From contig JAEUHJ010000153.1 in the NCBI GenBank assembly GCA_016795375.1, positions 1 through 64,000 on the forward strand: a DNA stretch of 64,000 nt, in the 5' to 3' direction. This stretch comes from Verrucomicrobiaceae bacterium. GTDB taxonomy: Bacteria > Verrucomicrobiota > Verrucomicrobiia > Verrucomicrobiales > Verrucomicrobiaceae. The notes below the pieces were generated by a model. That model did not search any database, was not told where the DNA came from, and was given only the letters and a program-made list of their open reading frames with translations. Position numbers and translations under genes: made by a program. Position 1 is the stretch's first letter. Each line of letters starts with the position of its first letter. Shown here in pieces: positions 5,989 through 44,766 of the stretch.

Positions 5989-6742
5989 TGCCGCGCTTGG
6001 TGCAGGCGACGAAATCAACGAATGCGGCGGCTTCGGGCGAGAGTCCGCCTGCGCGAAGCTCCTCGATGGCCTGGGCGTTGTTCAAACCGCTGCGATAGAC
6101 TTTGCGGAAGGCGTCGCGCAGCGCGCGGATTTGCTCGCGTGTGAAACCGGCGCGCCGCAGGCCGACGATGTTCAGGCCGCGCGCGCGGGCGGGATTTCCG
6201 TCGGCGGTGCAGAAGGGCGGGATGTCCTGCGTGACCTTGGAGCAGCCGCCGGTGATGGAGCGCGCGCCGATGCGGCAGAACTGATGCACGGCGGTGAGGC
6301 CGCCGATGATGACGTGGTCCTCAACGACGACGTGCCCGGCGAGCGTGCCGTTGTTCGAGAAGACGACATGACTGCCGACGACGCAGTCGTGCGCGATGTG
6401 GACGTAGCTCAGGAAGTGGTTGTGGCTGCCGATGACCGTCCTGTCCCCCGGCGAGGTGGCGCGATGCACGGAGCAGAACTCACGGAAGGTGTTGTCGTCG
6501 CCCACTTCGAGCCAGGTCGGCTCGGCCTTGTACTTCAAATCCTGCGTCTGCTGGCCGATGGAGCCGTAGGCGTAGAACTTGTTCCCCTTCCCGATCTTCG
6601 ACGGCCCCATGATGGTGACGTGATGCTGGAGCCAGCAACCATCGCCGAGCTCGACATCCGCGCCGATGATGCAATACGGGCCGATGTGGACGTCCGCGCC
6701 GACTCTGGCGGACGGGTCGATGATGGCGGTGGGGTGGATCAT
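5948..6742 (-). CDS. lpxA: UDP-N-acetylglucosamine O-acyltransferase
   Basis: 264 residues from the ATG at 6742 (MIHPTAIIDPSARVG), matching LpxA length. Residues 1-190 are a left-handed beta-helix of hexapeptide repeats. The catalytic histidine is in YVHIAHDC (His118), and the conserved stretch GGLTAVHQFCRIG follows at about 147-159. The C-terminal helical domain contains NIVGLRRAGF. It catalyses the first step of lipid A synthesis, transfer of a 3-hydroxyacyl group from ACP to UDP-GlcNAc. It lies 25 bases downstream of lpxC-fabZ on the same strand and is very likely co-transcribed with it. The C-terminus is acidic (ADEEE). Confidence 0.96.
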   Translation of the reverse strand: MIHPTAIIDPSARVGADVHIGPYCIIGADVELGDGCWLQHHVTIMGPSKIGKGNKFYAYGSIGQQTQDLKYKAEPTWLEVGDDNTFREFCSVHRATSPGDRTVIGSHNHFLSYVHIAHDCVVGSHVVFSNNGTLAGHVVVEDHVIIGGLTAVHQFCRIGARSITGGCSKVTQDIPPFCTADGNPARARGLNIVGLRRAGFTREQIRALRDAFRKVYRSGLNNAQAIEELRAGGLSPEAAAFVDFVACTKRGIIPGGKAAADEEE

Positions 6743-6767
6743 GCTCAGAGTTCGCTGTTCACAGCCA

Positions 6768-8087
6768 TCAACGATCCACAACGCTGAACATCAGATCCGC
6801 CTCGGAGGCGACCTGCCCGTTGACGATGCAGCGTCCGACCCCGCTGGCGATGCTGCGCTTGGTCTTGAGGATCTCGGTCTCGATGATGAGAGTGTCTCCG
6901 GGGAGCACGGGACGGCGCCACTTCACGTTGTCGGCGCTCATGAAGTAGCCGATCTTGCCCTGGTTGCCGGGCATGCGCAGCAGCACGATGCTGGCGACCT
7001 GCGCCATGGCCTCAAGCTGAAGGACGCCGGGCATGATGGGATGACCGGGGAAGTGCCCCTGGAAGAACGGCTCGTTGATGGTGACGTTTTTGATGCCAGT
7101 GCATTTCGTCTCGCCCTCAAAGCCGATGATGCGGTCCACCAGCAGGAAGGGGTAGCGGTGCGGGAGGATTTTCATCACCTCGTTGATGTCGAGCACGGAC
7201 TCGCCGCCCGGGATGTGTACCGGCGCGGGCACCATGCTGCGCATCGCCTCGTATTGCTTCACGATGGCGCGTGCCAGCTCGGTGTTCGGCCCGTGGCCGG
7301 GGCGCACGGCGATGACATGGCCCTGGATGCGCTTTCCGGAGAGCATGAGGTCGCCGACGATGTCGAGGATCTTGTGGCGAACGAACTCGTCGGCAAAACG
7401 CAGCGGCTGCTTCGAGAGCAGCGAGTCGCCACGGATGACGATGGCGGCCTCCAGCGTGCCGCCTTTGATGAGGCCCTTCTCCATCAGCGGGGCGATGTCC
7501 TCGTAATACACAAAGGTGCGCGCCGCGGCGATCTCCTTCTCGTAGGTCTCGGGATTGATCTCCGTGCTGAAATACTGCGTGAAGCGGCCCTCCGGCCCCA
7601 CGTTCGTGCAAGAGATGCGGAACTTCTTGTCGGGAACGATGGTGAGAATGGTGCCGTCGCGCGTCTCCTGATAAATCGGCTCGCGAATCTCGAAGACCTT
7701 GCGCGCCTCTTTTTGCTCGGCCAGTCCGGCGGATTTGATGAGTTCGACATACGGCATCGCGCTGCCGTCGGCGATGGGCGGCTCGTTCGCGTCCATCTCG
7801 ATGATGGCATTGTCCACGCCCATGCCAGTGAGGGCGGAGAGGACATGCTCCACCGTGTGAACATTCACACCACCCTCGGCGATGGTGGTTGCGCGCTCGA
7901 CTTTCTGCACCTTCTCCGCCAGGGCGGTGATGAAGGGCTTGTCCTCCAGGTCCACTCGGCGGAATTTGAAACCGAAATTTTCAGGCGCTGGCTGCAAGGT
8001 GAGCGTGACCTGCTCCCCCGTGTGCAGCGAGGTGCCCGTCATGGAGACGGCTTTGGCGAGGGTGTGCTGACGGTCGGATTGGGCCAT
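6768..8087 (-). CDS. lpxC/fabZ: Bifunctional LpxC deacetylase / FabZ 3-hydroxyacyl-ACP dehydratase
   Basis: 439 residues, a fusion of two enzymes. Residues 1-290 are LpxC: the zinc motif HTVEH (77-81) plus His238 and Asp242 in RHKILDIVGD, and the catalytic-loop histidine in PGHGPNTE (about 265). Residues 300-439 are a hot-dog fold FabZ: LPHRYPFLLVDR, catalytic His345 in GHFPGHP and Glu359 in QLEAMAQ. LpxC commits UDP-acyl-GlcNAc to lipid A; FabZ dehydrates 3-hydroxyacyl-ACP, so the fusion joins enzymes competing for the same acyl-ACP pool. This fusion is known from Bacteroidetes and PVC bacteria. lpxA follows directly. Confidence 0.97.
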   Translation of the reverse strand: MAQSDRQHTLAKAVSMTGTSLHTGEQVTLTLQPAPENFGFKFRRVDLEDKPFITALAEKVQKVERATTIAEGGVNVHTVEHVLSALTGMGVDNAIIEMDANEPPIADGSAMPYVELIKSAGLAEQKEARKVFEIREPIYQETRDGTILTIVPDKKFRISCTNVGPEGRFTQYFSTEINPETYEKEIAAARTFVYYEDIAPLMEKGLIKGGTLEAAIVIRGDSLLSKQPLRFADEFVRHKILDIVGDLMLSGKRIQGHVIAVRPGHGPNTELARAIVKQYEAMRSMVPAPVHIPGGESVLDINEVMKILPHRYPFLLVDRIIGFEGETKCTGIKNVTINEPFFQGHFPGHPIMPGVLQLEAMAQVASIVLLRMPGNQGKIGYFMSADNVKWRRPVLPGDTLIIETEILKTKRSIASGVGRCIVNGQVASEADLMFSVVDR

Positions 8088-8342
8088 GGCGCGCAGGGAA
8101 TGGAAGCGCGTTTGTTAGCGTCCCGGCCCGGCGTGGGCAAGGGGAAATCCGGGGGCGGGGTAGAGCCTTGGATCGTTCTCGTCCTCCTGCTCGTCCTCCG
8201 TCAAGCCACTCCGCAGCAGCCAGCGCATGGAAGCACTGCGAACTGTGAATGGAAAAGCACCGGTGAGCACATTTTGAATTTCGGCGCTTCTGGCCATCGC
8301 GGATCGCCAGGAACGAGGACGAACTGCGCGCCAGGAGCGCCG
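8088..8342. other. Intergenic region with imperfect acidic-codon-like repeat
   Basis: 255 bases between lpxC-fabZ (start at 8087) and the propeller gene (stop at 8343), both on the - strand. No convincing gene. It holds a GA/CT-biased stretch around 8173-8200 (tcgttctcgtcctcctgctc) and a related inverted fragment near 8307-8325 (ccaggaacgaggacgaac). Read as protein on the - strand the first gives DEQEDEND. It looks like a degenerate dispersed repeat or a decayed gene end. The lpxC promoter should be here but no clear -35/-10 is visible. Confidence 0.35.
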
Positions 8343-9596
8343 CTATTTCTTCCCGATGCACCACAGGTTCTGATAGCCGCGGATGAAGAGCAGCCCGTCA
8401 CTCACGGCGATGGAGCCGATGATTTTCTCACCGAGAGAGTTGGTGGCGATCAGCTTGAATGTCGGCTCCGCTTTGAACACGAAGCAATCACCGCCTTGAT
8501 TCGCCGCGTAGCATGTGCCGTCGGCGCTGAGGACGAGCGAGGACCAGTTCTGACCGGTGGGGCCCGGGCCTTTGAGGCGTTCGTTGTAGATCATCCCGCC
8601 CGTCTTGATGTCGCGGCACTCGACGATGCCGCCATCGGTCAGGATGTAATGGTGGCCGTCACGGATCACGCCGCTGCCGATGCGCTGCTGCACACGCGGA
8701 AGATGCCACACACGATTTTTCCCCGTCACGTCGCCGCTGCCTCCGGTTTTCACGGCCATCGCCGCGCCGCCGTAGCCGCACATGGCGATCATCATGCCGT
8801 CCGCATACAGCGGCGAGTTATAGACGAGCTTTGTCAGCCCGTCGCAGGTCCACAGCTCCTTGCCGGCGACCGGATCGAAGGCGCAGGCACGTCCGGGATA
8901 GGTCATGAGCAGCTCATAACGCGCGCCCGTCTTCCGCAGCAGCGGATCGCTCCAGGAGCCGAGCCATTGTTTTTTGTCGCCTTCACCCGAGGCACCGCCG
9001 GGCTCCTTGTGCTGCCAGAGCGTCCTGCCAGTCTTCTTGTCGAAGGCGTGGAGCACGGTGTTCTCGCCTGGGCCGAAGTTCAGGAACACGCGGTCGCCCG
9101 CGATCACGGGGGAGGTGCCGTTGCCCCAGATGTGGTGCTGTTTGCCCAGATCGGTGCGCTTCCAGATCTCCTTGCCGTTCATGTCGTAACAAAACACGCC
9201 CGCCGAGGCGAAGAACACGACCACACGCTCGCCATCCGTCGCGGGCGAGGCCGAGCAGTAGGGGTTCGTGCCATGCGTCAGTTCCGTCTCCCTGTAAATC
9301 GTGCCCGCATCCCAGAGCTGCCTGCCCGTTTTCTTGTCAAAGCACAGCAGCAGGCGCTTGCCTTCCTTCTCGATGGCCTGCGTCAGAAACAGCTTGTCGC
9401 CCCACACCACCGGCGTCGAATTGCCCCGGTCCGGCAGCTTCACCTTCCACAGCACATTTTCCGTCTGACTCCACTTCTCTGGCAGGCCCGACTCCGAACA
9501 AGTGCCGTCCCCGTTCGCCCCGCGCCACATGGGCCAGTTGTCAGCAAAGGCGGAGAGCGGAGCACTAAGGGCGAGAAGCAAGAGCGTGCGTTTCAT
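8343..9596 (-). CDS. Secreted PQQ-like beta-propeller repeat protein
   Basis: 417 residues with a Sec signal peptide (MKRTLLLLALSAPLSAFA, cleavage near 18). The mature part contains repeated propeller blades with W-rich strand ends and G-x-E/R-L-W turns: GRQLWDAG, GKEIWKR, GRTLWQHK and GKELWTCDG, plus several D-G-x-H/G loops. This matches the PQQ-binding-like (PF13360) family also used by BamB. Such secreted propellers are abundant in Planctomycetes and Verrucomicrobia, where most lack a proven cofactor. No dehydrogenase catalytic residues are evident, so a binding or scaffold role in the periplasm is more likely. It is not linked in an operon with bam genes here. Confidence 0.85.
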   Translation of the reverse strand: MKRTLLLLALSAPLSAFADNWPMWRGANGDGTCSESGLPEKWSQTENVLWKVKLPDRGNSTPVVWGDKLFLTQAIEKEGKRLLLCFDKKTGRQLWDAGTIYRETELTHGTNPYCSASPATDGERVVVFFASAGVFCYDMNGKEIWKRTDLGKQHHIWGNGTSPVIAGDRVFLNFGPGENTVLHAFDKKTGRTLWQHKEPGGASGEGDKKQWLGSWSDPLLRKTGARYELLMTYPGRACAFDPVAGKELWTCDGLTKLVYNSPLYADGMMIAMCGYGGAAMAVKTGGSGDVTGKNRVWHLPRVQQRIGSGVIRDGHHYILTDGGIVECRDIKTGGMIYNERLKGPGPTGQNWSSLVLSADGTCYAANQGGDCFVFKAEPTFKLIATNSLGEKIIGSIAVSDGLLFIRGYQNLWCIGKK

Positions 9597-9700
9597 GACG
9601 TGGTCGGGTCGGCTGCCTATGAAACGTCGGCTACAAGCCCGTCCTTTAGGGAAGCGCTGAATAAGTCGGTGGTTTGAAAAATGGCCGTTGGTCAGGCCAG

Positions 9701-18372: not shown

Positions 18373-18795
18373 TCAAACTTTCCAAGGATTGACCAGCGCC
18401 AAGGTCTTCGGGAAGTCCTTCTCGTTGCGCGTCACCATCGTCAGCCCGTGCATTTCGGCCGTCGCAGCGAGGAGCGTGTCCACGAAGGGCGGCTTGCGCC
18501 TCGTCAGCCGTTCTTCGCGGCTGTAAACCGGTCCCCAGAAGCTCATCAGCGCCCGATCTACCGGCAGGATGCGACCGGCGTTCTCCATGCCATCCGTGAT
18601 GGTGTTGAACCATGCCATCAATCGATGCTTTCGGTTGCTGTCTTTCATCTTGGTGATGCCTCGTTCCACCTCGCCGAGCGTCAAAACGGACACCGCGCAC
18701 TCATGGCGGTGAAGCGAGAACCAGTGAATGACGTTCGCGTCCTGTTTCCGCTTTGTCGGCTCACTCAGAACCATCGTGTCGATCAGGTATTTCAT
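18373..18795 (-). CDS. vapC: VapC-family PIN-domain toxin
   Basis: 140 residues, typical VapC/FitB length. Starts MKYLIDTMVLSE with the first catalytic Asp, followed by TLGEVERGI (Glu), and FVDTLLAATAEMHGLTMVTRNEKDF with the C-terminal acidic residues of the PIN active site. PIN toxins of this class cleave RNA, often tRNA. Its start overlaps the stop of the Phd-type antitoxin by 4 bases, the usual antitoxin-first order. It lies on the strand opposite to the SUF genes and interrupts the sufB-sufD interval. Confidence 0.9.
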   Translation of the reverse strand: MKYLIDTMVLSEPTKRKQDANVIHWFSLHRHECAVSVLTLGEVERGITKMKDSNRKHRLMAWFNTITDGMENAGRILPVDRALMSFWGPVYSREERLTRRKPPFVDTLLAATAEMHGLTMVTRNEKDFPKTLALVNPWKV

Positions 18796-25189: not shown

Positions 25190-26497
25190 TCAATGAGATG
25201 CGGTGGAGCGTGTGGAATGCCCGGGCTTCACCTCAAGGACGTCTTTGCGACAGGAACACAACCAGAGAAGCAGCAACGCGCCAACCTGGGATGCGGCGAT
25301 GCATGCTGGCAGTGTCGGACGCACGGCCACTCCCAATGGAGAAGGGGGCTCGATCACAAAAAAACGCGGCGGGTTGGTGAGCGCGGCGGATGCGAGCATC
25401 TGCCGCTGGTTGAAAGCCTTGCGCAGGGCGCTTTCCAGGCCGCTGACGGTCTGCTTCAACCGCACATACTCAGGATTGAAGCGCGCGGCGCCGATGGCGT
25501 TGATTTGCTCCTTGTTGGCGGCGGTTTCCTTGGCGAGCCAGATTCCGGCGGCTTTCACGGATTCAACCGCCACCTGGAGAGCTTCTCTTTGGGCCGTCAG
25601 CTCATCCAGGAGGCGTTGCCTGCTGGATGCGAGTGTTTTTTTAGCCGCGAGCACCTCCTCATGTTGCTCACCGTAGGCTGCTTCCAGCGCCGCGAGTCCT
25701 GCGGTGTTGCCCAGGACTTCCGACCATGCCTCGGAGACACCGGAGCTGCGTTTTGAGACGAGATTCATCATGTTGCCACCTCCGCCGCCGCCGGTCTGCA
25801 ACTCGTAGGCGTCGGCCATCTCGAAGCCGGATGACGGCGGCACGTTTTTTCCGGCGTGGATGCCGGCGAGCGCTGTTTCCAGCAGCGCGAGCATGCTTTG
25901 ATAGCGATTGGCGCGGACCGTGAGATCCGAGTGGAGGTTTTCAAGCTGGGAGGCGCGGCGCTGTTTTTCACGCAACCGGTACTCACGTTCGAGCGGGTCG
26001 CCTGTCTGTTCCCCGATGGTTTGAAGGGCTGCACGGTGCTGCCGCAACTGCTGCTCGAGCGACTTGATGCCGGCCTCCACCTGCCGCAGACCGGCGGCCT
26101 GTTCCTCCTGCCAGAGGCGGTTGTCCAGGGCGCGTCGCTCCTCCAGCAAGGCGGCGGCCAGCGAAACAGCGAGCTGCGGCGAGGGAGCCGCCACATCGAG
26201 GTGGATCGTGCGGCTGAAGGAATTGATGCCGACTGTGACGGCCTGGCGGACAGCCGCGGCTGATTGAACCTGTTTTCCGGCCACGGCATCCAGCAGGCGG
26301 CGGTCGTGAAAACCGCGACCGATGGTGCCGGTGATCTGCGTGTCGTCTGCGGGCGCGTAGTCACCCAGGCTGCGCTCCGAGGGCGCGTTCACGACGGCGG
26401 TCAATTCGACGCCGCAGACGTGCTGTTTGGGGCCGACCTTCCAGTACGCGCCAAGCAAGGCCAGGGCGAGCACTTCGATGATGAGAAAGCACTTCAT
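25190..26497 (-). CDS. Wzz/GumC-like chain-length protein, third of three
   Basis: 435 residues. One hydrophobic segment at the N-terminus (about 4-18) and one near the C-terminus (about 400-420), with a long coiled-coil-prone middle rich in Glu, Gln, Ala and Leu (about 130-370). The stretch FNPEYVRLKQTVSGLESAL, then PPRFFVIEPPSPLG, resembles the Pro-rich segment before the second membrane helix in polysaccharide co-polymerases. No tyrosine-kinase domain follows. A poly-Gly insert (TGGGGGGN) lies near 235. The start overlaps the preceding Wzz-like gene by 4 bases. Confidence 0.72.
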   Translation of the reverse strand: MKCFLIIEVLALALLGAYWKVGPKQHVCGVELTAVVNAPSERSLGDYAPADDTQITGTIGRGFHDRRLLDAVAGKQVQSAAAVRQAVTVGINSFSRTIHLDVAAPSPQLAVSLAAALLEERRALDNRLWQEEQAAGLRQVEAGIKSLEQQLRQHRAALQTIGEQTGDPLEREYRLREKQRRASQLENLHSDLTVRANRYQSMLALLETALAGIHAGKNVPPSSGFEMADAYELQTGGGGGGNMMNLVSKRSSGVSEAWSEVLGNTAGLAALEAAYGEQHEEVLAAKKTLASSRQRLLDELTAQREALQVAVESVKAAGIWLAKETAANKEQINAIGAARFNPEYVRLKQTVSGLESALRKAFNQRQMLASAALTNPPRFFVIEPPSPLGVAVRPTLPACIAASQVGALLLLWLCSCRKDVLEVKPGHSTRSTASH

Positions 26498-27729
26498 GCG
26501 TCATTTTTTTTCGATCCCGAACCAAGCAGGCCGATGAGCAGACCGATGACCGGACACGAAAGCAGGGCGACTGAAGGCACGGGGCGTTCCGCCGTGGAGG
26601 GCAGCGAAGGCGGATCCTGGACGACAAAAAGAGCGGCCAGTGAGGTCTTCTGAAGGTCGATCAACTGTCGTGCCTTGACGGTCTCGGTCAGCGATGCCTC
26701 CAGACCCGCCTTGATGGCGCGTTTGGGGCCTTCGACCAGCTCGCGCCGCCGGTCCTCCTGCATGGCGGTGTCGTAGAATTTTTTCTTTTCAGCCAGTTCC
26801 CTCATGCTGCGGTCCAGCGCCGCCAGGGAGGTTTTTTCTTTTTCGATCTGGGTGGAGAGAAAGGATTTCAACTCCAGCTCCAGCGCGGCGACGCGCGCCC
26901 GTGCCACGGCGGCCTTGGAGCTGTTCTCTCCCGATCCGGCGAGCGTTTCAGCGAGTTCTGAGCGACTGGCGGCCAAATTGCGCCGCAGTTCGACAACCCC
27001 CCACTTGCGCAAGGTTTCGGCCTCCTGGAAATACGCGCCCGCGCCGGGCTCCTCTTTGATGGCCCCCAACAGGCCGGCCTTCGACATGGCCTCCAGGGAG
27101 GCGATGGTGCTCTGCAGCCGTGCGCGTTCGACGATGATGCCCGCGAGTGATTTTTCGATGACGGTGATGTTGGCGGAGTAATCGACGGACTGGCGGGAGG
27201 AGCCCAGCTCGCCGGTGATCTGCTGGAGTTGCTTCTCGATACCGGCGGCGATGATGTCGTTCTGCGCCTTCTGAGCAGCGAGGTTTTTTTCAACCATCTG
27301 CTGATGCATTTCCGCACGAGCGTCCAGGAACGCGGCGGCGATGCGACGCGCCATCTCCCGGTCTTTATGACGCGCGGTGATCATCACAAAGGTGGAACCG
27401 ACGACGGGGGAGGCGCGCAGGCAGTCTCGGAGGTCCGCGCCCTGCTCCGCCGGGATGCCGAGTCTGGCGCAGGCGCGTTCGATCACGGCATTGGAGGTGA
27501 AGCTGCTGGCGAAGTCCTCTACCATTTTGAAGATGATCGATGAGGTGTCCTTTTCCGTGGCGCTCTCCACCACTCCTTCGGGATGCGCGTCGAAACCGGC
27601 CAGCCTCACGACAGCTTCGGAGGCATGGCGCGGTACCGACCACAGGAGCATGGCCCCGTTGATGGCGAGCAGCACCGCCGTGGCCAGCAGGCCGCGCCAG
27701 AACCCATGTTGGAGGATGCGAAGGATCAC
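26494..27729 (-). CDS. Wzz/GumC-like chain-length protein, second of three
   Basis: 411 residues. N-terminal membrane helix (about 12-30, GLLATAVLLAINGAMLLW), a long periplasmic part with heptad-like helices (about 130-350), and VVQDPPSLPSTAERPVPS leading to a second helix (about 388-402). This is the layout of Wzz/PCP proteins that set polysaccharide chain length. No kinase domain; the short C-terminus is SGSKKNDA. It overlaps both neighbours by 4 bases (ATGA), implying coupled translation and perhaps a fixed ratio of the three products. Confidence 0.75.
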   Translation of the reverse strand: MILRILQHGFWRGLLATAVLLAINGAMLLWSVPRHASEAVVRLAGFDAHPEGVVESATEKDTSSIIFKMVEDFASSFTSNAVIERACARLGIPAEQGADLRDCLRASPVVGSTFVMITARHKDREMARRIAAAFLDARAEMHQQMVEKNLAAQKAQNDIIAAGIEKQLQQITGELGSSRQSVDYSANITVIEKSLAGIIVERARLQSTIASLEAMSKAGLLGAIKEEPGAGAYFQEAETLRKWGVVELRRNLAASRSELAETLAGSGENSSKAAVARARVAALELELKSFLSTQIEKEKTSLAALDRSMRELAEKKKFYDTAMQEDRRRELVEGPKRAIKAGLEASLTETVKARQLIDLQKTSLAALFVVQDPPSLPSTAERPVPSVALLSCPVIGLLIGLLGSGSKKNDA

Positions 27730-29015
27730 GGCGGGGGAAGAAAACAGGACAGCAGGCCTGCGCGCAGCGCGCCAAACGCCAGCCCGAGCATTCCGCCGAC
27801 GCCCAACGCGCCCGCGAGGGCGATCAGTTTCGTGGTTTGATACGGGCCCTGGGGAAGATCAGGCGGGTCAAGCAGCCGCAATGACTGCGGCTGCATCTGC
27901 AAGGTGACGGCTAGCTGGTTGCGCCGGCTGAGAAGCTGCTGATAAACGGCCTGGAGGGAGGTGTTGGCAAACACGAGGGCGTTGTTGACCGGATCACGGT
28001 CCAAGGTGGTGAAAGTCTGTGTTTTGAGCGCCTGGAGGTTTTTTTCGAGCAGTTCGCGAGACGCCTGCAAGCCGGAGAAGTTGGTCTCGGCCTGATGGGC
28101 CAGCTCACGCAGGCCCTGGACGAGCTGGCGCTTGGTCTCGGTCACCGCAGCCTGGGCCTCCACCACCTTCGGGTGAGTGACGCCGTAGCGGCTGCTCAAG
28201 GATGCCAGATCCTCCATTCTGGCCGCCAGTTGCCGCTTCAAATCCGCGAAAGTCTGGCTGCCCTCGCCGAAATCCTGGAACTTCTCCGCGGAAGTTCTGC
28301 CGCTTTCGATTTCGGAGACGGCGCTGTTGAGTTTTGCCAGGCGTATGCGCGCCGCCTCCGTGGCCGCGACGAGTTGTGCGATGTTGCCCTCGATGGTCAC
28401 CTGGCCGCTGCCGGAGATGCTGCGGTCCTGCGTGTCGGACTTGCCCACGGCGTTGGCGGCTATCTGCTGGTAGGTGTCCTTGATGCTTTTCTGGATCTGG
28501 CCGAGCTGCCGGTCGATGCCCTCGACCAGCGGCTTCATCACCAGGTGGAAATTCTCCTTTTCCTGCTCCAGGCGTTTGTCCACCACGGACTGGAGGAGAC
28601 GGCGCGCCGTCTCCGGTTTGTCAGCGTCTGCGGAGACATATATGAGCGCCACGTCGGCAGATTTGGCCGAGATGCTTTTGCGCACTCCCTCGGCGGTGAA
28701 GGGCGCGCCAAGCTGCTCCGCCACGCGGGCCGCGAGCAGGCTGCTCTTGAAACTGGCCACTGTGGCGACCGAGCGGTATGGCAGCGCACCCGCGTTTTCC
28801 TGCATCTCCGCCACGCCTTCCGTGCGGAATTCACGCGAGGTGACCTCGAAGGTGGCGTTGGAGCGGTACTTCACCGGCAGCATGACCCAGGTGCCCGCGC
28901 CCGCGCCGCCTCCGAGCATGGTGAAGATCAAAATCGGGAGCATCATTTTCCCCCAAGCGATGGCAGGACGCTGGCCGGACGTGGCCGGAGTGGTTGATTC
29001 AGGAGTATTTTTCAC
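27726..29015 (-). CDS. Wzz/GumC-like chain-length protein, first of three
   Basis: 429 residues. Membrane helix at about 24-45, then PVKYRSNATFEVTS, the beginning of a Wzz-type periplasmic domain. Coiled-coil regions lie at about 150-345 (RYGVTHPKVVEAQAAV is a GumC-like motif). LRLLDPPDLPQGPYQTTK precedes the second helix (about 395-420), as in GumC/Wzc. It lacks a cytoplasmic Tyr kinase. It overlaps the upstream polymerase gene by 17 bases and the next Wzz-like gene by 4. Confidence 0.82.
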   Translation of the reverse strand: MKNTPESTTPATSGQRPAIAWGKMMLPILIFTMLGGGAGAGTWVMLPVKYRSNATFEVTSREFRTEGVAEMQENAGALPYRSVATVASFKSSLLAARVAEQLGAPFTAEGVRKSISAKSADVALIYVSADADKPETARRLLQSVVDKRLEQEKENFHLVMKPLVEGIDRQLGQIQKSIKDTYQQIAANAVGKSDTQDRSISGSGQVTIEGNIAQLVAATEAARIRLAKLNSAVSEIESGRTSAEKFQDFGEGSQTFADLKRQLAARMEDLASLSSRYGVTHPKVVEAQAAVTETKRQLVQGLRELAHQAETNFSGLQASRELLEKNLQALKTQTFTTLDRDPVNNALVFANTSLQAVYQQLLSRRNQLAVTLQMQPQSLRLLDPPDLPQGPYQTTKLIALAGALGVGGMLGLAFGALRAGLLSCFLPPP

Positions 29016-30321
29016 AGGCGTGATTCCGGTTTGTCAGGAGATTGCCGCACCAGATCAACTGGATGAGCCAGAGACGCTCGACCGGATTGATGAGGAGCGA
29101 CTCGTTGCAGGCGGAAAGGAGGATGAAAAACACGGTGAGGAGCGGCCAGCACGCGGCCCAGGTGGCGGCATGAGACACCTGCTGCAAAGCACGTTTGACG
29201 GCGGTGAGGAGCATGCCCGCGAACAATATCATGCCGGTGATGCCCAGGCCGAGCATCAACTCGATGTAGCCGTTGTGCGCATGCGGCGTGCGCCAGTTCG
29301 TGGACTGCCACACCCAGCCCACCGGTCCGGGATAAACCCAGAACGCATGGTGGCCGTAGCCCAGCATCGGCTGCTGCGAGATGGCGTCGAAGCAGATTCG
29401 CCAGATGAAATCACGGCCGGTGATGGAGAGGTTTTTGCCGATTGAATGCGCGGCCGCCTCCGCCATGTCAGTGATGGCGAACAACAGGCTCCCAAAAGCC
29501 GCCTCGCAACCGATGCCGACGCCCGCCAGCAGCAGCAGCACGGCCGCGATCCCCCGGAAAACACGCGGCTGCCTTTGCAGCAGCCAAAGCACCGGCAGGA
29601 CAGTGAGCAGCAGGAGGACGAGCACCAGCGCGGTTTTGGATTGTGACTTCATCACCAGCAGCACACTGAGCGCCACCAGCGCCGCTCCTGCGAGGGGATT
29701 GCGCCCGTGCAACACGCTCACAATCCCGCAGACGGCCGCAAAGGACATGGTGCGGCCCAGGACGTTCTTGTGAATGAACAGGCCGCGCCACGCACCCGGG
29801 AACTCCACCGACATCACACCGATTCCCGGCAACACCACGCACACCAGCAGGCTGCCGGCCGCCACGACGAGCAGCGCGTAAGTGAATGCCTTCAACTGCC
29901 GCTCCACATCCAGATGAACGACGGCCGCAAAGGCGCAGGCGCAGGTGACGGCCAGATTCACGGCTTCCATCAGCGAGGTCTCAGGGGAGACGCTCCAGAG
30001 GCAGGACAGCAGTGACAGCAGGCAGAAGGCGACCATCACCTTGTTCTGTCCCAGCACACGGCGGAATCCCGGCAGATCGCGGCACACCAGCAGCAGTACC
30101 AGCGGCAGCATGCAAATCAACGGAGCCTTGTTTTTCAGCACCCAGACAGCCGAGTAGCTGATCGGATTCACATTCTGCAGGATTCCGGAGAAGAACACAT
30201 AGCCAAGGGTGAAGAGTGCCAGCAGCCACGCGGGCGCCTGGCGCGACACGCGTGACGCCGACGACGTGTCAGCACACGAAACGCACGGCGGAGATTCTGC
30301 CAGACTCACGCTTGCCATCAT
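28999..30321 (-). CDS. O-antigen ligase/polymerase family membrane protein (Wzy-like)
   Basis: 440 residues from the ATG at 30321 (MMASVSLAESPP); an upstream in-frame ATG at 30378 is possible but adds unlikely sequence. About ten hydrophobic segments. The Wzy/WaaL-type loop contains PGAWRGLFIHKNVLGR and GYGHHAFW, then PHAHNGYIELMLGLGITG, the H-N-G-x-x-E motif. It would polymerise or ligate glycan units in the periplasm. It is the first gene of an overlapping operon with three Wzz-like genes, which fits polymerase plus chain-length control. Divergent from a GT2 glycosyltransferase. Confidence 0.85.
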   Translation of the reverse strand: MMASVSLAESPPCVSCADTSSASRVSRQAPAWLLALFTLGYVFFSGILQNVNPISYSAVWVLKNKAPLICMLPLVLLLVCRDLPGFRRVLGQNKVMVAFCLLSLLSCLWSVSPETSLMEAVNLAVTCACAFAAVVHLDVERQLKAFTYALLVVAAGSLLVCVVLPGIGVMSVEFPGAWRGLFIHKNVLGRTMSFAAVCGIVSVLHGRNPLAGAALVALSVLLVMKSQSKTALVLVLLLLTVLPVLWLLQRQPRVFRGIAAVLLLLAGVGIGCEAAFGSLLFAITDMAEAAAHSIGKNLSITGRDFIWRICFDAISQQPMLGYGHHAFWVYPGPVGWVWQSTNWRTPHAHNGYIELMLGLGITGMILFAGMLLTAVKRALQQVSHAATWAACWPLLTVFFILLSACNESLLINPVERLWLIQLIWCGNLLTNRNHACEKYS

Positions 30322-30479
30322 CGGCGTGGATCGTAGGAGGCCGCCGTCTTTTAGGCAATGAAAATCGCAGGGTGGCATCCGCGACGGGCGGTCAGGAGCC
30401 TCCTGTGTTGACGAAAAGCCTGCTTTTGCGCATGCTTGCCCTGAATATCGCAGGCTCGCGTTTCAACCGCCATCTCATC

Positions 30480-31406
30480 ATGGACAACACGCCCGTCACC
30501 GTCATCATCCCCTGCTACAACATGGAGCGCTATCTGGCGCGGACGCTGGACTCGGTCATCGGGCAGACTTGCAATAACCTTGAGATTCTCGTCGTGGACG
30601 ACGGCTCGAAAGACGGCACGGCGGGCATCGCTCGCGAGTATGAGAAGCGTGATCCGCGGGTGCGGCTGCTCACCCAGACGAACAAGGGAGCCTCCGCGGC
30701 GCGCAACCTCGGTCTCGACAATGCCTGCGGCAAATACATCGCCTTCACCGACGGCGATGACTGGTGGGCCCCGACAAAAATCGAGAAACACGTCGCCCAC
30801 CTGGAACGTGATCCGACCGTCGGCTGCAGCTACTCCGCCACGCAGTTCGTCACGCTCGACGGCAAGCTGCTGCACTGCCGCTTTCCGAAGACGAAAAACC
30901 TCAGCGACTACTACCTCTACTGCCGCAATCCCATCACCAACGGCTCCACACCCGTTTTCCGGCGCGAGGTCTTCGACGAGCACCGATTTGACGAGAACAA
31001 GCCGCGCAACAACGACGTGGACTGCTGGCTGCGCATCTGCTTCACCCCGCCGCGGAGGTGGAAGCTGGAGGGCATCAACGAGGCGTTGACGTTTTACCGT
31101 GTCACACCTGGCAGCCTCTCCGACAAGCTGGACAAGCATTACGACGCCTGCCTGCACACCTGGCAGAAGTCGCATCAATACGCGCCCGACATCGCGAAGA
31201 AATTCGCGAAGCTGGCGGAGGCATTCCAGCTTCGCAACTACGCCCGCCGCGCATGGTCCATGCGCCAGGGTGCCGGGTGCCGTCGCTTCATGTGGCAGGC
31301 CATGAAGGCGGACATGCGCATGTTCTGGTACGAGCCGGTGATGAGCGGCGTCACACTTGCCGCCGTGGTACTGTCACCGCTGGTCCCTGGAATGAAAAAC
31401 TCATGA
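30480..31406 (+). CDS. Family 2 glycosyltransferase
   Basis: 308 residues from the ATG at 30480 (MDNTPVTVIIPCYN); an upstream ATG at 30432 would add 16. GT-A fold motifs: PCYNMERYLARTLDSV, VVDDGSKDGT, NKGASAARNLGL and the metal-binding TDGDDWW (D-x-D region, about 95). EVD/W in the acceptor part reads NNDVDCWLRI. It transfers a nucleotide sugar, target unknown. It overlaps the WecG-type gene by ATGA and is divergent from the polymerase operon. Confidence 0.9.
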   Translation: MDNTPVTVIIPCYNMERYLARTLDSVIGQTCNNLEILVVDDGSKDGTAGIAREYEKRDPRVRLLTQTNKGASAARNLGLDNACGKYIAFTDGDDWWAPTKIEKHVAHLERDPTVGCSYSATQFVTLDGKLLHCRFPKTKNLSDYYLYCRNPITNGSTPVFRREVFDEHRFDENKPRNNDVDCWLRICFTPPRRWKLEGINEALTFYRVTPGSLSDKLDKHYDACLHTWQKSHQYAPDIAKKFAKLAEAFQLRNYARRAWSMRQGAGCRRFMWQAMKADMRMFWYEPVMSGVTLAAVVLSPLVPGMKNS

Positions 31407-32161
31407 GACACCGCCTCCCCGTCATCCCCATCCTCGACATCCCGGTGGTCCGCGCCTCCGAGGCTGAGGCGATGGCGGAAATCGCCCGGCTGGCGGAAGA
31501 TGCGCCTTCCGCGCTGCTTGTGTATGTGAATGCCCACACGCTGGAGCTTTCCGCACGGGATGCGGAACTGCGACGGCTGCTGCAAGAGGACGCGGCGATG
31601 GTGATGAATGACGGCATCGGCGTCTCCATCGCGGCGAAAATCACCGGTGGAGGTGTCTTCCCCGCCAACCTGAACGGCACGGACCTGACGCCGAAGATTC
31701 TCGAGCTGGCCGCCGCGAAGGGCTGGCGCGTGTTTCTCTTGGGCGCGGCTCCAGGCGTGGCGGAGAAGGCGGCGGCGAAGTTTGCCGCGACAGTAGCCGG
31801 ACTGGTGATGGCGGGCACGCACGACGGATTCTTCACCGCGGAGCAGGAACCCGGCATCATCCGGCAGATTCGCGACGCGGGGACGGACGTGCTCCTCGTC
31901 GGCATGGGCAATCCGAGGCAGGAGAAGTGGCTGGCGCGGCATCTCGCCGCCACGGGCGCGAAAATCGGCGTCGGTGTCGGGGCATTCCTGGACTTCTCCG
32001 CCGATGTGTTTCCACGAGCACCGGTTTGGATGCAGATGATCAAGCTCGAATGGCTCTACCGCATGTCCCGCGAGCCACGGCGTCTGTGGAAGCGTTATCT
32101 GCTCGGTGGTCCGGTGTTTCTGGCCCGCGTGGCTTTGTCCGCTCTTGGAAAAAAGAAGTGA
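31403..32161 (+). CDS. WecG/TagA/CpsF family glycosyltransferase (GT26)
   Basis: 252 residues. Family motifs: VYVNAHTLELSARD, MNDGIGVSIAAKI, LNGTDLTP, VFLLGAAPGVAEKAA, GTHDGFF, VGMGNPRQEKW and GVGAFLDFSADVFPRAP, plus the C-terminal basic EWLYRMSREPRRLWKRY that binds the membrane. These enzymes add a ManNAc-type sugar (or related) to an undecaprenyl-linked acceptor at the cytoplasmic membrane. Paired with the upstream GT2 by a 4-base overlap. Confidence 0.93.
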   Translation: MRHRLPVIPILDIPVVRASEAEAMAEIARLAEDAPSALLVYVNAHTLELSARDAELRRLLQEDAAMVMNDGIGVSIAAKITGGGVFPANLNGTDLTPKILELAAAKGWRVFLLGAAPGVAEKAAAKFAATVAGLVMAGTHDGFFTAEQEPGIIRQIRDAGTDVLLVGMGNPRQEKWLARHLAATGAKIGVGVGAFLDFSADVFPRAPVWMQMIKLEWLYRMSREPRRLWKRYLLGGPVFLARVALSALGKKK

Positions 32162-41779: not shown

Positions 41780-42352
41780 GTGAAACGCCACCTGCTCCAG
41801 TCCCTGCGCCTGCTCGTCATCAGCGGGCTGGCGGGCGCGGCATGGGTGGCGCACCGCCCTGCGGACCTGCCGGACACGCCCCAGGCTGAAGCTGGCAGGA
41901 ACGACGACCTCATCGACATGCTGCGGCAGACGGCGATCAAACGCGCCGCAGTGGTGGAGGTCAGCGAGGCGGAGATCAACCGCCATCTCGGCGGCGTGCT
42001 CGCCGGGCGGCTGGCAGACGTGTTCGGCGGATGGGTGAGCTTTGAGGGGGCGCGGATCGACCTGGAGCCCGGTACTGCGCGGGTCTTCCTCATCTGGAAG
42101 CTCCGGGGGCATCTGCGCACCGCCAGTGTCGATCTCGCCATCGACCGCGACGACAGCAACTTCCATGTCGATCTGCTGCGTGGAGCCTACGGGCATCTGC
42201 AGATGCCGCGCGGCATGATGCGGCCGCTTTATCCCGCCCTCCGCTCCGTGGCGGACGCGCTCGCCCCTGAAATCCGCGCCTTGTTCCAGATGACGAAGAT
42301 CACCATCGCCAAGGACAAACTCGTGCTCGATCCCCGCTTCCCACCCGCATGA
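41780..42352 (+). CDS. Hypothetical exported protein
   Basis: 190 residues from a GTG start. N-terminal hydrophobic helix (about 5-25) followed by an extracytoplasmic part. VVEVSEAEINRHLGGVL, FEGARIDLEPGTARVFLIW and a helix-beta pattern (TASVDLAIDRDDSNFHVDLLRGAYG) suggest a small beta-sheet fold of the type seen in membrane-lipid-binding periplasmic proteins (TULIP/LEA-like), but this is only a guess. The stop overlaps the next gene by ATGA, so the two products likely work together. Confidence 0.55.
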   Translation: MKRHLLQSLRLLVISGLAGAAWVAHRPADLPDTPQAEAGRNDDLIDMLRQTAIKRAAVVEVSEAEINRHLGGVLAGRLADVFGGWVSFEGARIDLEPGTARVFLIWKLRGHLRTASVDLAIDRDDSNFHVDLLRGAYGHLQMPRGMMRPLYPALRSVADALAPEIRALFQMTKITIAKDKLVLDPRFPPA

Positions 42353-44766
42353 TCCGTCATTCCCTCATTGTTCAGGCGGTCATGGGCATCTTGTTTTACG
42401 CCGCCCTGCCAGCCACGGCCCAGACACCGGTGCCTCCGGCTCCGCAGCTCACGAAGGAGCAGAAGGAGGCCGCAGCCGCCGTCGAGGCTCCGAAAGCTCC
42501 CGTGCCTCCACCGGTCCCCGGCCAGTTGCAAGGCGGGCCGCCCAAGACAGCCGCGCCTGCTCCCGCCCCGCAGGCACCCGCCGCCAGTTCCGCCAGCAAA
42601 ATGCAGGCGCTGGAGGCTGTGACCCGGCAGCCAGCGGCGCAGGGGGCGCCCCGTGTGGGCTCTCCCGCAGACAAGATGCCCGTCACCAGCTCCACCAGCG
42701 CCAGCAGGCAGTTCATCGTGCATGGGAAGGTGTTCGAGACGCGCAGCGCCATGTCCTCGCGTTGCGACGAGATTTCCCAGGAGCTGCGCAAGGTGCTCAA
42801 CGACAAGGAGCCTTTCGTGCTCCCCATCGTCGTCGTGCTGAACACCGGCATTGACGCGGAGAAGTCCGCCGGCCCTCCGATCTCAACGGCGATCTCCGAA
42901 CTCACACACGGCGGTTTTCATCTTCAGGTGACGGTCAATGAGCGGCCCGGCCTCAACGCGGAGGACTTGCGCAAGGAGGTCGTGCGCGCCCTGCTCGCCG
43001 AGCGCATCCTGCGCAACCATCAGAAAATCACCGCTCCGCAGCACCGCCTGCTGCTGCCGGACTGGGTCATGACCGGCGTCCTGCAGGCCATGAACCACAA
43101 GTCCGGCACACGCTCCAGCGTGACATTTTCCACCATTTTCCGCAGCGGCAAAATCTACGGCATCGAGGAGATCATCACCGCCTCCCCGGTGGAGATGGAC
43201 GGCCTCTCACGCAGCATCTACGAGACCTCATGCGGCGCGCTCGTGCTCGCGCTGGCCGACCAGCCGGACGGCCCGTCTCATTTCAACAAGTTCCTCAATG
43301 CGCTTGCCAGTGACCCGCGTTCCGAACGTGATCTGCTCAACGCCGCCTTCCCGAATTTCGCCGCCACGGCCTCCAGCTTGAACAAGTGGTGGTCACTCCA
43401 GCTCGCCACGCTTTCCAAACCCGGCATCGACGAGCCGCTCACGCCCGCCAAGAGCCTCGAAGCCCTCGAAGACGCCATCACCATCCGGTATGAGGTTCCG
43501 CCGGCCGACGTGCCGAAGAATGTGAAGCCGCGCCCCTTCGTGCTGCCCGCGCCGCTGCCAGTCGTTCCCGCGCATGAAACCGCGCCGGAGCGGACCGCGG
43601 CAGCCGGGGAAATACCGAAACCCAAAACCAAGGCCATCACAGATGCGGACGCGGAAACGGGCGGGCTTGATGGAAAACCCAGGCGCAGCCTCTGGCGCCG
43701 CCTGCTTTTCCTGGGCGATCCCGCCGGGGAGAAACCTGAAAACGCTGAAAACAGCCCCGAGGAGGACAAGCCCGGCTTCTTCGACCGCATCTTCGGCCTC
43801 GACGCTGACGAGAAAAAAGAAGCGGATGCAGCCAGGGCGGATACAGCGGAAAAAAACAAAAAAGAAGACAAGGACAAGCCGCAGGCCGGTGACGAGGAGA
43901 AGAAACCCTCCATGCTCAATCCGCTGAACTGGTTCCGTGGCGGCAAGGAGGAGAAAAGCCCTGATGAGGAAAATGCGGCCAAAGAAGGCGCGCGCACCTC
44001 CGCGCTTTCGCCCGGCTCGTTCGACATCACCCGCATGATCTCACCCATGCTCGCGGACGCCTGGCAGATGATCGCTCCCGCAGCCCCGCGCCTCACCGCG
44101 CAGCCGTTGTTTGATTTCCGCAAACGCAAATCCCCGCCGGAGGAGGAAAAAAAGAAGGCGGAGCAGCAGGACAAGGCTGCCGCGAAAAAAACGGACAAAC
44201 CGCGCACCACCAATCCCAACGCCAGACCCGCCTCCAAAACCGCCATGACCCAGCCCGGCAAGCCCAAGGTGACCAATCCCCACGCGCGCCCCGTGCCTGC
44301 CGGGATGGCCCCCCCGGTCGCCGGAGCCGCCGCCACGGCGAAACCCGGCCTCGTGCCTGTGGCGCTGCCGTTGGAGGAATACCAGCACATCCTCAAGCAC
44401 CCGGACCGCGTCAAAATCCTCGCACGGAACATCACCGCCCTGCGCGCGCTGGAGCTGCGTGTCAGCGTGCTCTTTCGTCCCGTCATCTCGGCGTATCTCG
44501 CCGTCGTGACCGACCTCCAGGAGGGCAGGACGAAGGACATGCCCAGGCGCCTCGCCACGCTGCGCGAATTCGCCCTCGTCGCGCATCAAAAATCCGTCGC
44601 CGTGCGTGATTACCTCGACTGGTTCGAGGCTAGCGAAAGCGGCCGCCTCTCCGGCAAGTTCGACGACTATCTCAACCTGCCGGAGATCATCGAAAAAGAA
44701 CTCCCCCCGCGCACCGACCCGATCTCGAAATACCTCGATGCCATCGACCAGGAGTTCTCGAAGTAG
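42349..44766 (+). CDS. Large exported protein of unknown function with low-complexity linkers
   Basis: 805 residues, signal peptide about 1-25 (QAVMGILFYAALPATA). Residues about 25-110 are Pro/Ala-rich, about 120-380 form a folded domain, about 380-660 are charged and low-complexity (many Lys/Glu/Pro runs) and the last 150 look helical. The folded domain has RKEVVRALLAERILRN, then LLLPDWVMTGVLQAM, in positions where gluzincin peptidases (peptidase_MA-like) have HExxH and W-x-x-E-G; the catalytic His/Glu are absent. It is coupled by a 4-base overlap to the 190-residue exported protein. Confidence 0.6.
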   Translation: MIRHSLIVQAVMGILFYAALPATAQTPVPPAPQLTKEQKEAAAAVEAPKAPVPPPVPGQLQGGPPKTAAPAPAPQAPAASSASKMQALEAVTRQPAAQGAPRVGSPADKMPVTSSTSASRQFIVHGKVFETRSAMSSRCDEISQELRKVLNDKEPFVLPIVVVLNTGIDAEKSAGPPISTAISELTHGGFHLQVTVNERPGLNAEDLRKEVVRALLAERILRNHQKITAPQHRLLLPDWVMTGVLQAMNHKSGTRSSVTFSTIFRSGKIYGIEEIITASPVEMDGLSRSIYETSCGALVLALADQPDGPSHFNKFLNALASDPRSERDLLNAAFPNFAATASSLNKWWSLQLATLSKPGIDEPLTPAKSLEALEDAITIRYEVPPADVPKNVKPRPFVLPAPLPVVPAHETAPERTAAAGEIPKPKTKAITDADAETGGLDGKPRRSLWRRLLFLGDPAGEKPENAENSPEEDKPGFFDRIFGLDADEKKEADAARADTAEKNKKEDKDKPQAGDEEKKPSMLNPLNWFRGGKEEKSPDEENAAKEGARTSALSPGSFDITRMISPMLADAWQMIAPAAPRLTAQPLFDFRKRKSPPEEEKKKAEQQDKAAAKKTDKPRTTNPNARPASKTAMTQPGKPKVTNPHARPVPAGMAPPVAGAAATAKPGLVPVALPLEEYQHILKHPDRVKILARNITALRALELRVSVLFRPVISAYLAVVTDLQEGRTKDMPRRLATLREFALVAHQKSVAVRDYLDWFEASESGRLSGKFDDYLNLPEIIEKELPPRTDPISKYLDAIDQEFSK

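Follow-up and report, generated by a model that had tools for sequence, protein, structure and literature searches.

A polymerase gene and three consecutive kinase-less PCP genes in a Verrucomicrobiaceae genome

How might three different polysaccharide co-polymerases (PCPs) serve a single polysaccharide polymerase, and would they need a kinase to do so? This question is raised by a block of four overlapping genes within the window, a 64,000-nucleotide stretch of contig JAEUHJ010000153.1 from a Verrucomicrobiaceae bacterium (GCA_016795375.1). The original prediction held that one Wzy-like polymerase and three distinct PCPs made in coupled translation point to a hetero-oligomeric chain-length machine. 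We find that two of the three PCPs represent a pair conserved in related genomes and that the third is an addition, and we weigh what this means for how the proteins might work together.

The gene block and its products

The first gene of the block encodes a Wzy-type polysaccharide polymerase (28999..30321, minus strand; an alternative upstream start would extend it to 28999-30378), which matches PF04932 in family searches with an E-value of 1.7e-16. PF04932 spans both Wzy polymerases and WaaL ligases, and the operon shared with PCP genes favours assignment of this protein as a polymerase. The genes that follow on the minus strand encode PCP-A (27726..29015, GTG start, 429 aa), PCP-B (26494..27729, GTG start, 411 aa) and PCP-C (25190..26497, 435 aa). 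The open reading frame list bears out the predicted overlaps of 17, 4 and 4 bases. Long open reading frames also occur on the opposite strand; the minus-strand frames are backed by homology. All three PCP genes are complete, which rules out a single gene that was split or frameshifted, and each product has one hydrophobic segment near its N terminus and one near its C terminus, so no PCP is a split half of another.

Transcribed divergently from this block on the plus strand are genes for a GT2 glycosyltransferase (30480..31406), 76-88% identical in eight relatives, and a WecG/TagA/CpsF glycosyltransferase (31403..32161), which overlap by 4 bases. The gap between the two transcription directions (30379..30479) is a presumed promoter region, though we found no significant consensus match there and a promoter scan returned matches no more numerous than in shuffled sequences. 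Because the GT2/WecG pair and the polymerase and PCP genes of relatives (by 4 and about 17 bases in the loci read) overlap in a similar way, short overlaps are ordinary here, and the unusual feature of the locus is its three consecutive PCP genes rather than the overlaps. The GC and GC3 content of the block resembles that of its neighbours and gives no compositional sign of a recent import of foreign DNA.

Elsewhere in the window, an Rfam scan matched only a tRNA. A VapC-like PIN-domain protein (18373-18795, minus strand) lies between suf genes and could belong to a toxin-antitoxin pair, and two plus-strand open reading frames of 1003 and 805 aa (6666-9677 and 42349-44766) have no Pfam match at 1e-5.

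Are all three proteins members of the PCP family? Sequence families place PCP-A there, with matches to TIGR03007 (E 1.9e-10) and EpsF (E 2.4e-8) and a GNVR score of 27.1 bits, just under the cut-off of 27.7 bits. Family searches gave no convincing match for PCP-B or PCP-C, and the Pfam Wzz family PF02706 had zero matches across the genome. The BLASTP alignment of PCP-A with PCP-B covers most of both proteins at 24% (E 2e-8), and PCP-C matches either of them only weakly, confirming that the three differ strongly from one another. For PCP-B and PCP-C, we compared profiles built solely from the sequences of relatives, whose corresponding locus encodes two PCPs (PCP1 and PCP2). With hhalign, PCP-B matched the PCP2 profile at 1e-14 and the PCP1 profile at 2e-4, PCP-C matched PCP1 at 4.7e-10 and PCP2 at 0.06, and the PCP1 and PCP2 profiles matched each other at 3.5e-11.

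Predicted folds also place PCP-B and PCP-C in the family. In AlphaFold2 models (mean pLDDT 71.6 for PCP-B and 78.5 for PCP-C), two membrane helices flank a periplasmic alpha/beta base and long coiled-coil helices. The best PDB matches in Foldseek were Wzc, KpsE, WzzB and WzzE for PCP-C and Wzc for PCP-B, with FepE further down, at E-values of 3e-6 and 3.5e-5 and with low TM-scores of about 0.2-0.5. Such TM-scores would be expected from long coiled coils that differ in their bend, and we therefore base the fold evidence on the Foldseek E-values. The predicted folds match the membrane-periplasmic part of Escherichia coli Wzc, a PCP-2a protein, whereas the Wzc kinase domain and tyrosine tail are absent from the window PCPs. 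PCP-C also has a loop, rich in glycine and modelled with low confidence, that connects two long helices at residues 230-243 (about window 25769-25810); the other aligned PCPs lack it.

A conserved pair and an added PCP

The genus sample comprised 48 Prosthecobacter genomes, namely the host (a 4.7 Mb draft, 87% complete) and 47 congeners. A full-length PCP1 homologue (25-27%) is present in 8 of the 47 congeners, where the gene order is Wzy, PCP1, PCP2 and then GT2, followed in most by WecG; the stretch read of this run contains no kinase. The same 9 of 48 genomes carry GT2, a full-length PCP1-type match and, where read, tandem PCPs. Searches with GT2 and with PCP-C returned an identical set of nine genomes, and this agreement identifies the conserved unit as a two-PCP cassette together with two glycosyltransferases. 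PCP-C itself was seen in the window only and did not turn up in any relative examined.

The window and the relatives thus share a kinase-less PCP pair that follows a PF04932-type polymerase, overlapping genes, and a conserved GT2 and WecG. They differ in that the relatives have two PCPs rather than three and transcribe the cassette in one direction, whereas the polymerase-PCP block of the window is inverted relative to GT2-WecG; flippase and export genes adjoin the cassette in a relative's cluster (L033) but lie on another contig in the window genome. We detected no relation between the window polymerase and the Wzy that relatives encode here, either by BLAST, which gave no match, or by hhalign (E 0.04). 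Named records that contain GT2 relatives are for the most part metagenome assemblies of Prosthecobacter or Verrucomicrobiaceae, with one labelled Akkermansia and one Verrucomicrobiales. A gammaproteobacterial metagenome contig encodes a GT2 (L066:870-1748) 55% identical to that of the window; we recognised no PCP in the 10 kb of this contig, and either transfer from one phylum to another or misbinning might explain the match.

In a tree of 36 PCP sequences, the kinase-less proteins stood apart from the Wzc type (support 97/94). Within it PCP-B grouped with PCP2 (95/94) and PCP-A and PCP-C with PCP1 (93/83); when PCP-C was left out, the branches holding PCP-A with PCP1 and PCP-B with PCP2 were supported at 98/96 and 97/94. 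We accordingly treat PCP-A as the orthologue of PCP1 and PCP-B as that of PCP2. A recent triplication of one gene was marginally rejected, with the three window PCPs as a single clade at p 0.0498. Topologies that unite PCP-C with PCP-A (p 0.14) or with PCP-B (p 0.23) were both unrejected, and finer placements are unsure because the window branches are very long, the longest being that of PCP-C (3.16). The tree results thus describe PCP1 and PCP2 as an old pair and PCP-C as an addition of uncertain origin, probably of PCP1 type.

The arrangement is rare, as predicted. Apart from the window, we found only pairs in the genus, and 145 genomes from across the phylum showed no other adjacent PCP pair, in a search whose profile was built from all these PCPs, the window proteins included, and is therefore biased to them such that divergent tandems could be missed. 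The matches in those genomes were mostly single long open reading frames of about 690-1230 residues that resemble Wzc. When we looked for the same cassette elsewhere by way of the window polymerase, 286 genomes of the class yielded a single relative, at 29%, and BLASTP detected no PCP-like open reading frame in the 19.5 kb that was read there.

Kinases and the rest of the pathway

Family searches found a kinase domain in none of the three PCP chains, in line with the prediction. The chains (411-435 aa) end shortly past the second membrane helix and have neither the kinase domain nor the tyrosine-rich tail of PCP-2a proteins. We recognised no gene for a stand-alone BY-kinase or pseudokinase in the operon, in the two glycosyltransferase neighbours or in the scanned genes of relatives' clusters. 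A stand-alone kinase, for which a genome search was proposed at the outset, was thus not seen beside the operon and might be encoded elsewhere. Two canonical Wzc kinases with tyrosine-rich tails are encoded on contigs C23 and C126. A third Wzc-like protein of about 816 aa, on contig C195 (L039:3330-5780, minus strand), has a Walker A motif and an altered Walker A' stretch but lacks a tyrosine tail. A near-identical N-terminal copy of it sits at the end of contig C67 (L117), and several genomes of the family encode comparable long, tail-less Wzc proteins, which may represent a conserved pseudokinase-type PCP.

Kinase-less PCPs have been described before. EpsV with EcpK in Myxococcus and HfsA with HfsB in Caulobacter are known cases of a kinase-less PCP that works with a stand-alone pseudokinase (PMC12004946). 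Like the window block, these systems place a PCP that lacks a kinase domain in a Wzx/Wzy pathway, and EpsV also pairs with a short OPX protein. They differ in that each pathway has a single PCP with a stand-alone pseudokinase partner, and no such partner was found beside the window operon.

Where is the rest of the pathway? The contiguous L033 cluster of a relative comprises genes for a histidine kinase that bears a cyclic-nucleotide domain, an OPX protein of the short kind (Poly_export and SLBB), a protein of 482 aa that has a signal-like N terminus but matches no family, Wzx, the priming sugar transferase, a hexapeptide protein, another sensor kinase and a receiver protein, followed by WecG, GT2, PCP2, PCP1 and Wzy. 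Contig C16 of the window genome carries orthologues of the sensor kinase (82%), the OPX protein (84%), the 482-aa protein (78%) and Wzx (85%), as well as a sensor pair 78% and about 90% identical to those of relatives. We saw the priming transferase itself in relatives, and C16 has a homologous stretch at its expected place. One genome thus encodes a polymerase and PCPs in the window and Wzx and OPX orthologues on C16, where the run ends before WecG and GT2, so the pathway is probably split in this genome.

Synteny in relatives suggests that the window block and the C16 genes serve one pathway. Alternatively, the block may belong to the synthesis of a different polymer; four GT2-carrying genomes lack a close copy of the C16-type Wzx, which indicates that cluster content varies. 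From its position in the gene order and its size, the 482-aa protein might conceivably be an outer-membrane barrel that works with the short OPX protein, a type of export for which there is precedent (PMC9601211).

How three PCPs might serve one polymerase

We consider it reasonably likely that the locus encodes the polymerisation module (Wzy and three kinase-less PCPs), along with two adjacent glycosyltransferases, of a Wzx/Wzy-type exopolysaccharide pathway, in which the PCP-A/PCP-B pair acts as a unit that PCP-C modifies. Glycosyltransferases would make the repeat unit on a lipid carrier, Wzx would flip it and Wzy would then polymerise it. PCPs beside Wzy would set chain length and hand the polymer to the short OPX protein. 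As the old conserved pair, PCP-A and PCP-B would most likely form one unit, either a mixed ring or two cooperating rings, to which PCP-C would add a probably PCP1-type subunit. We infer co-assembly, chain-length control and the export route; a hetero-oligomer of these PCPs is plausible by analogy with PssP and PssP2 of Rhizobium leguminosarum, which form a heterocomplex (PMC4182512). The PssT-PssP-PssP2 system is similar in combining one polymerase with two different PCPs in a heterocomplex; it differs in that it has two PCPs and makes a proteobacterial EPS, and its PCP genes are not known to overlap in a run with the polymerase gene. A stricter version would have the three PCPs, none identical to another, combine obligately in one ring around Wzy whose subunit composition sets length with no need for tyrosine phosphorylation; this strikes us as unlikely.

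Each PCP might instead assemble into a homo-oligomer of its own and impose a distinct modal chain length on the one polymerase, as the Salmonella paralogues WzzB and FepE do. Several length regulators in one organism have precedent, and FepE has been described as a regulator of very long O-antigen (PMC13161533). The strong divergence of the window PCPs (24% between PCP-A and PCP-B, weaker still for PCP-C) makes shared interfaces non-obvious. Adjacency of PCP1 and PCP2 in 8/8 relatives nevertheless speaks more for joint action than for optional length modes, and we regard separate rings as somewhat improbable. That PCP-A and PCP-B alone function, with PCP-C a redundant or decaying paralogue, would accord with its not being found in any relative, its branch length, the longest in the tree, and its lack of a convincing family match. 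Yet PCP-C retains a full-length frame with the two membrane segments, its PCP fold is predicted fairly confidently, its GC3 is near that of its neighbours and it overlaps the preceding gene by 4 bases; we regard a redundant or decaying PCP-C as unlikely. Reliance on a kinase or pseudokinase in trans, such as the C195 protein or one of the two canonical Wzc proteins, has candidates encoded in the genome, and pseudokinases are known to scaffold kinase-less PCPs (PMC12004946). These candidates, however, are fused to PCP domains of their own, and similar proteins occur in many genomes without tandem PCPs, which leaves this the least likely explanation, and a very improbable one.

The contrast originally drawn between the one or two PCP partners of known systems and the three here stands in part: three in a row were seen nowhere else, but two of them are the conserved pair and only the third is extra. 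We found no description of a three-PCP operon in the open-licence papers searched. Kinase-less PCPs and a two-PCP heterocomplex were already known, and the three-PCP cassette is an enlarged form of these.

Our comparisons suggest that some Verrucomicrobiota run a Wzx/Wzy pathway without a cluster-encoded kinase, in a phylum where most of the PCPs found are long Wzc-like chains. The locus bears on how PCPs set polymer length and on whether different PCPs mix in one complex. A natural cassette of one polymerase and three PCPs, alongside relatives with two, offers a simple system for varying the number and identity of the subunits.
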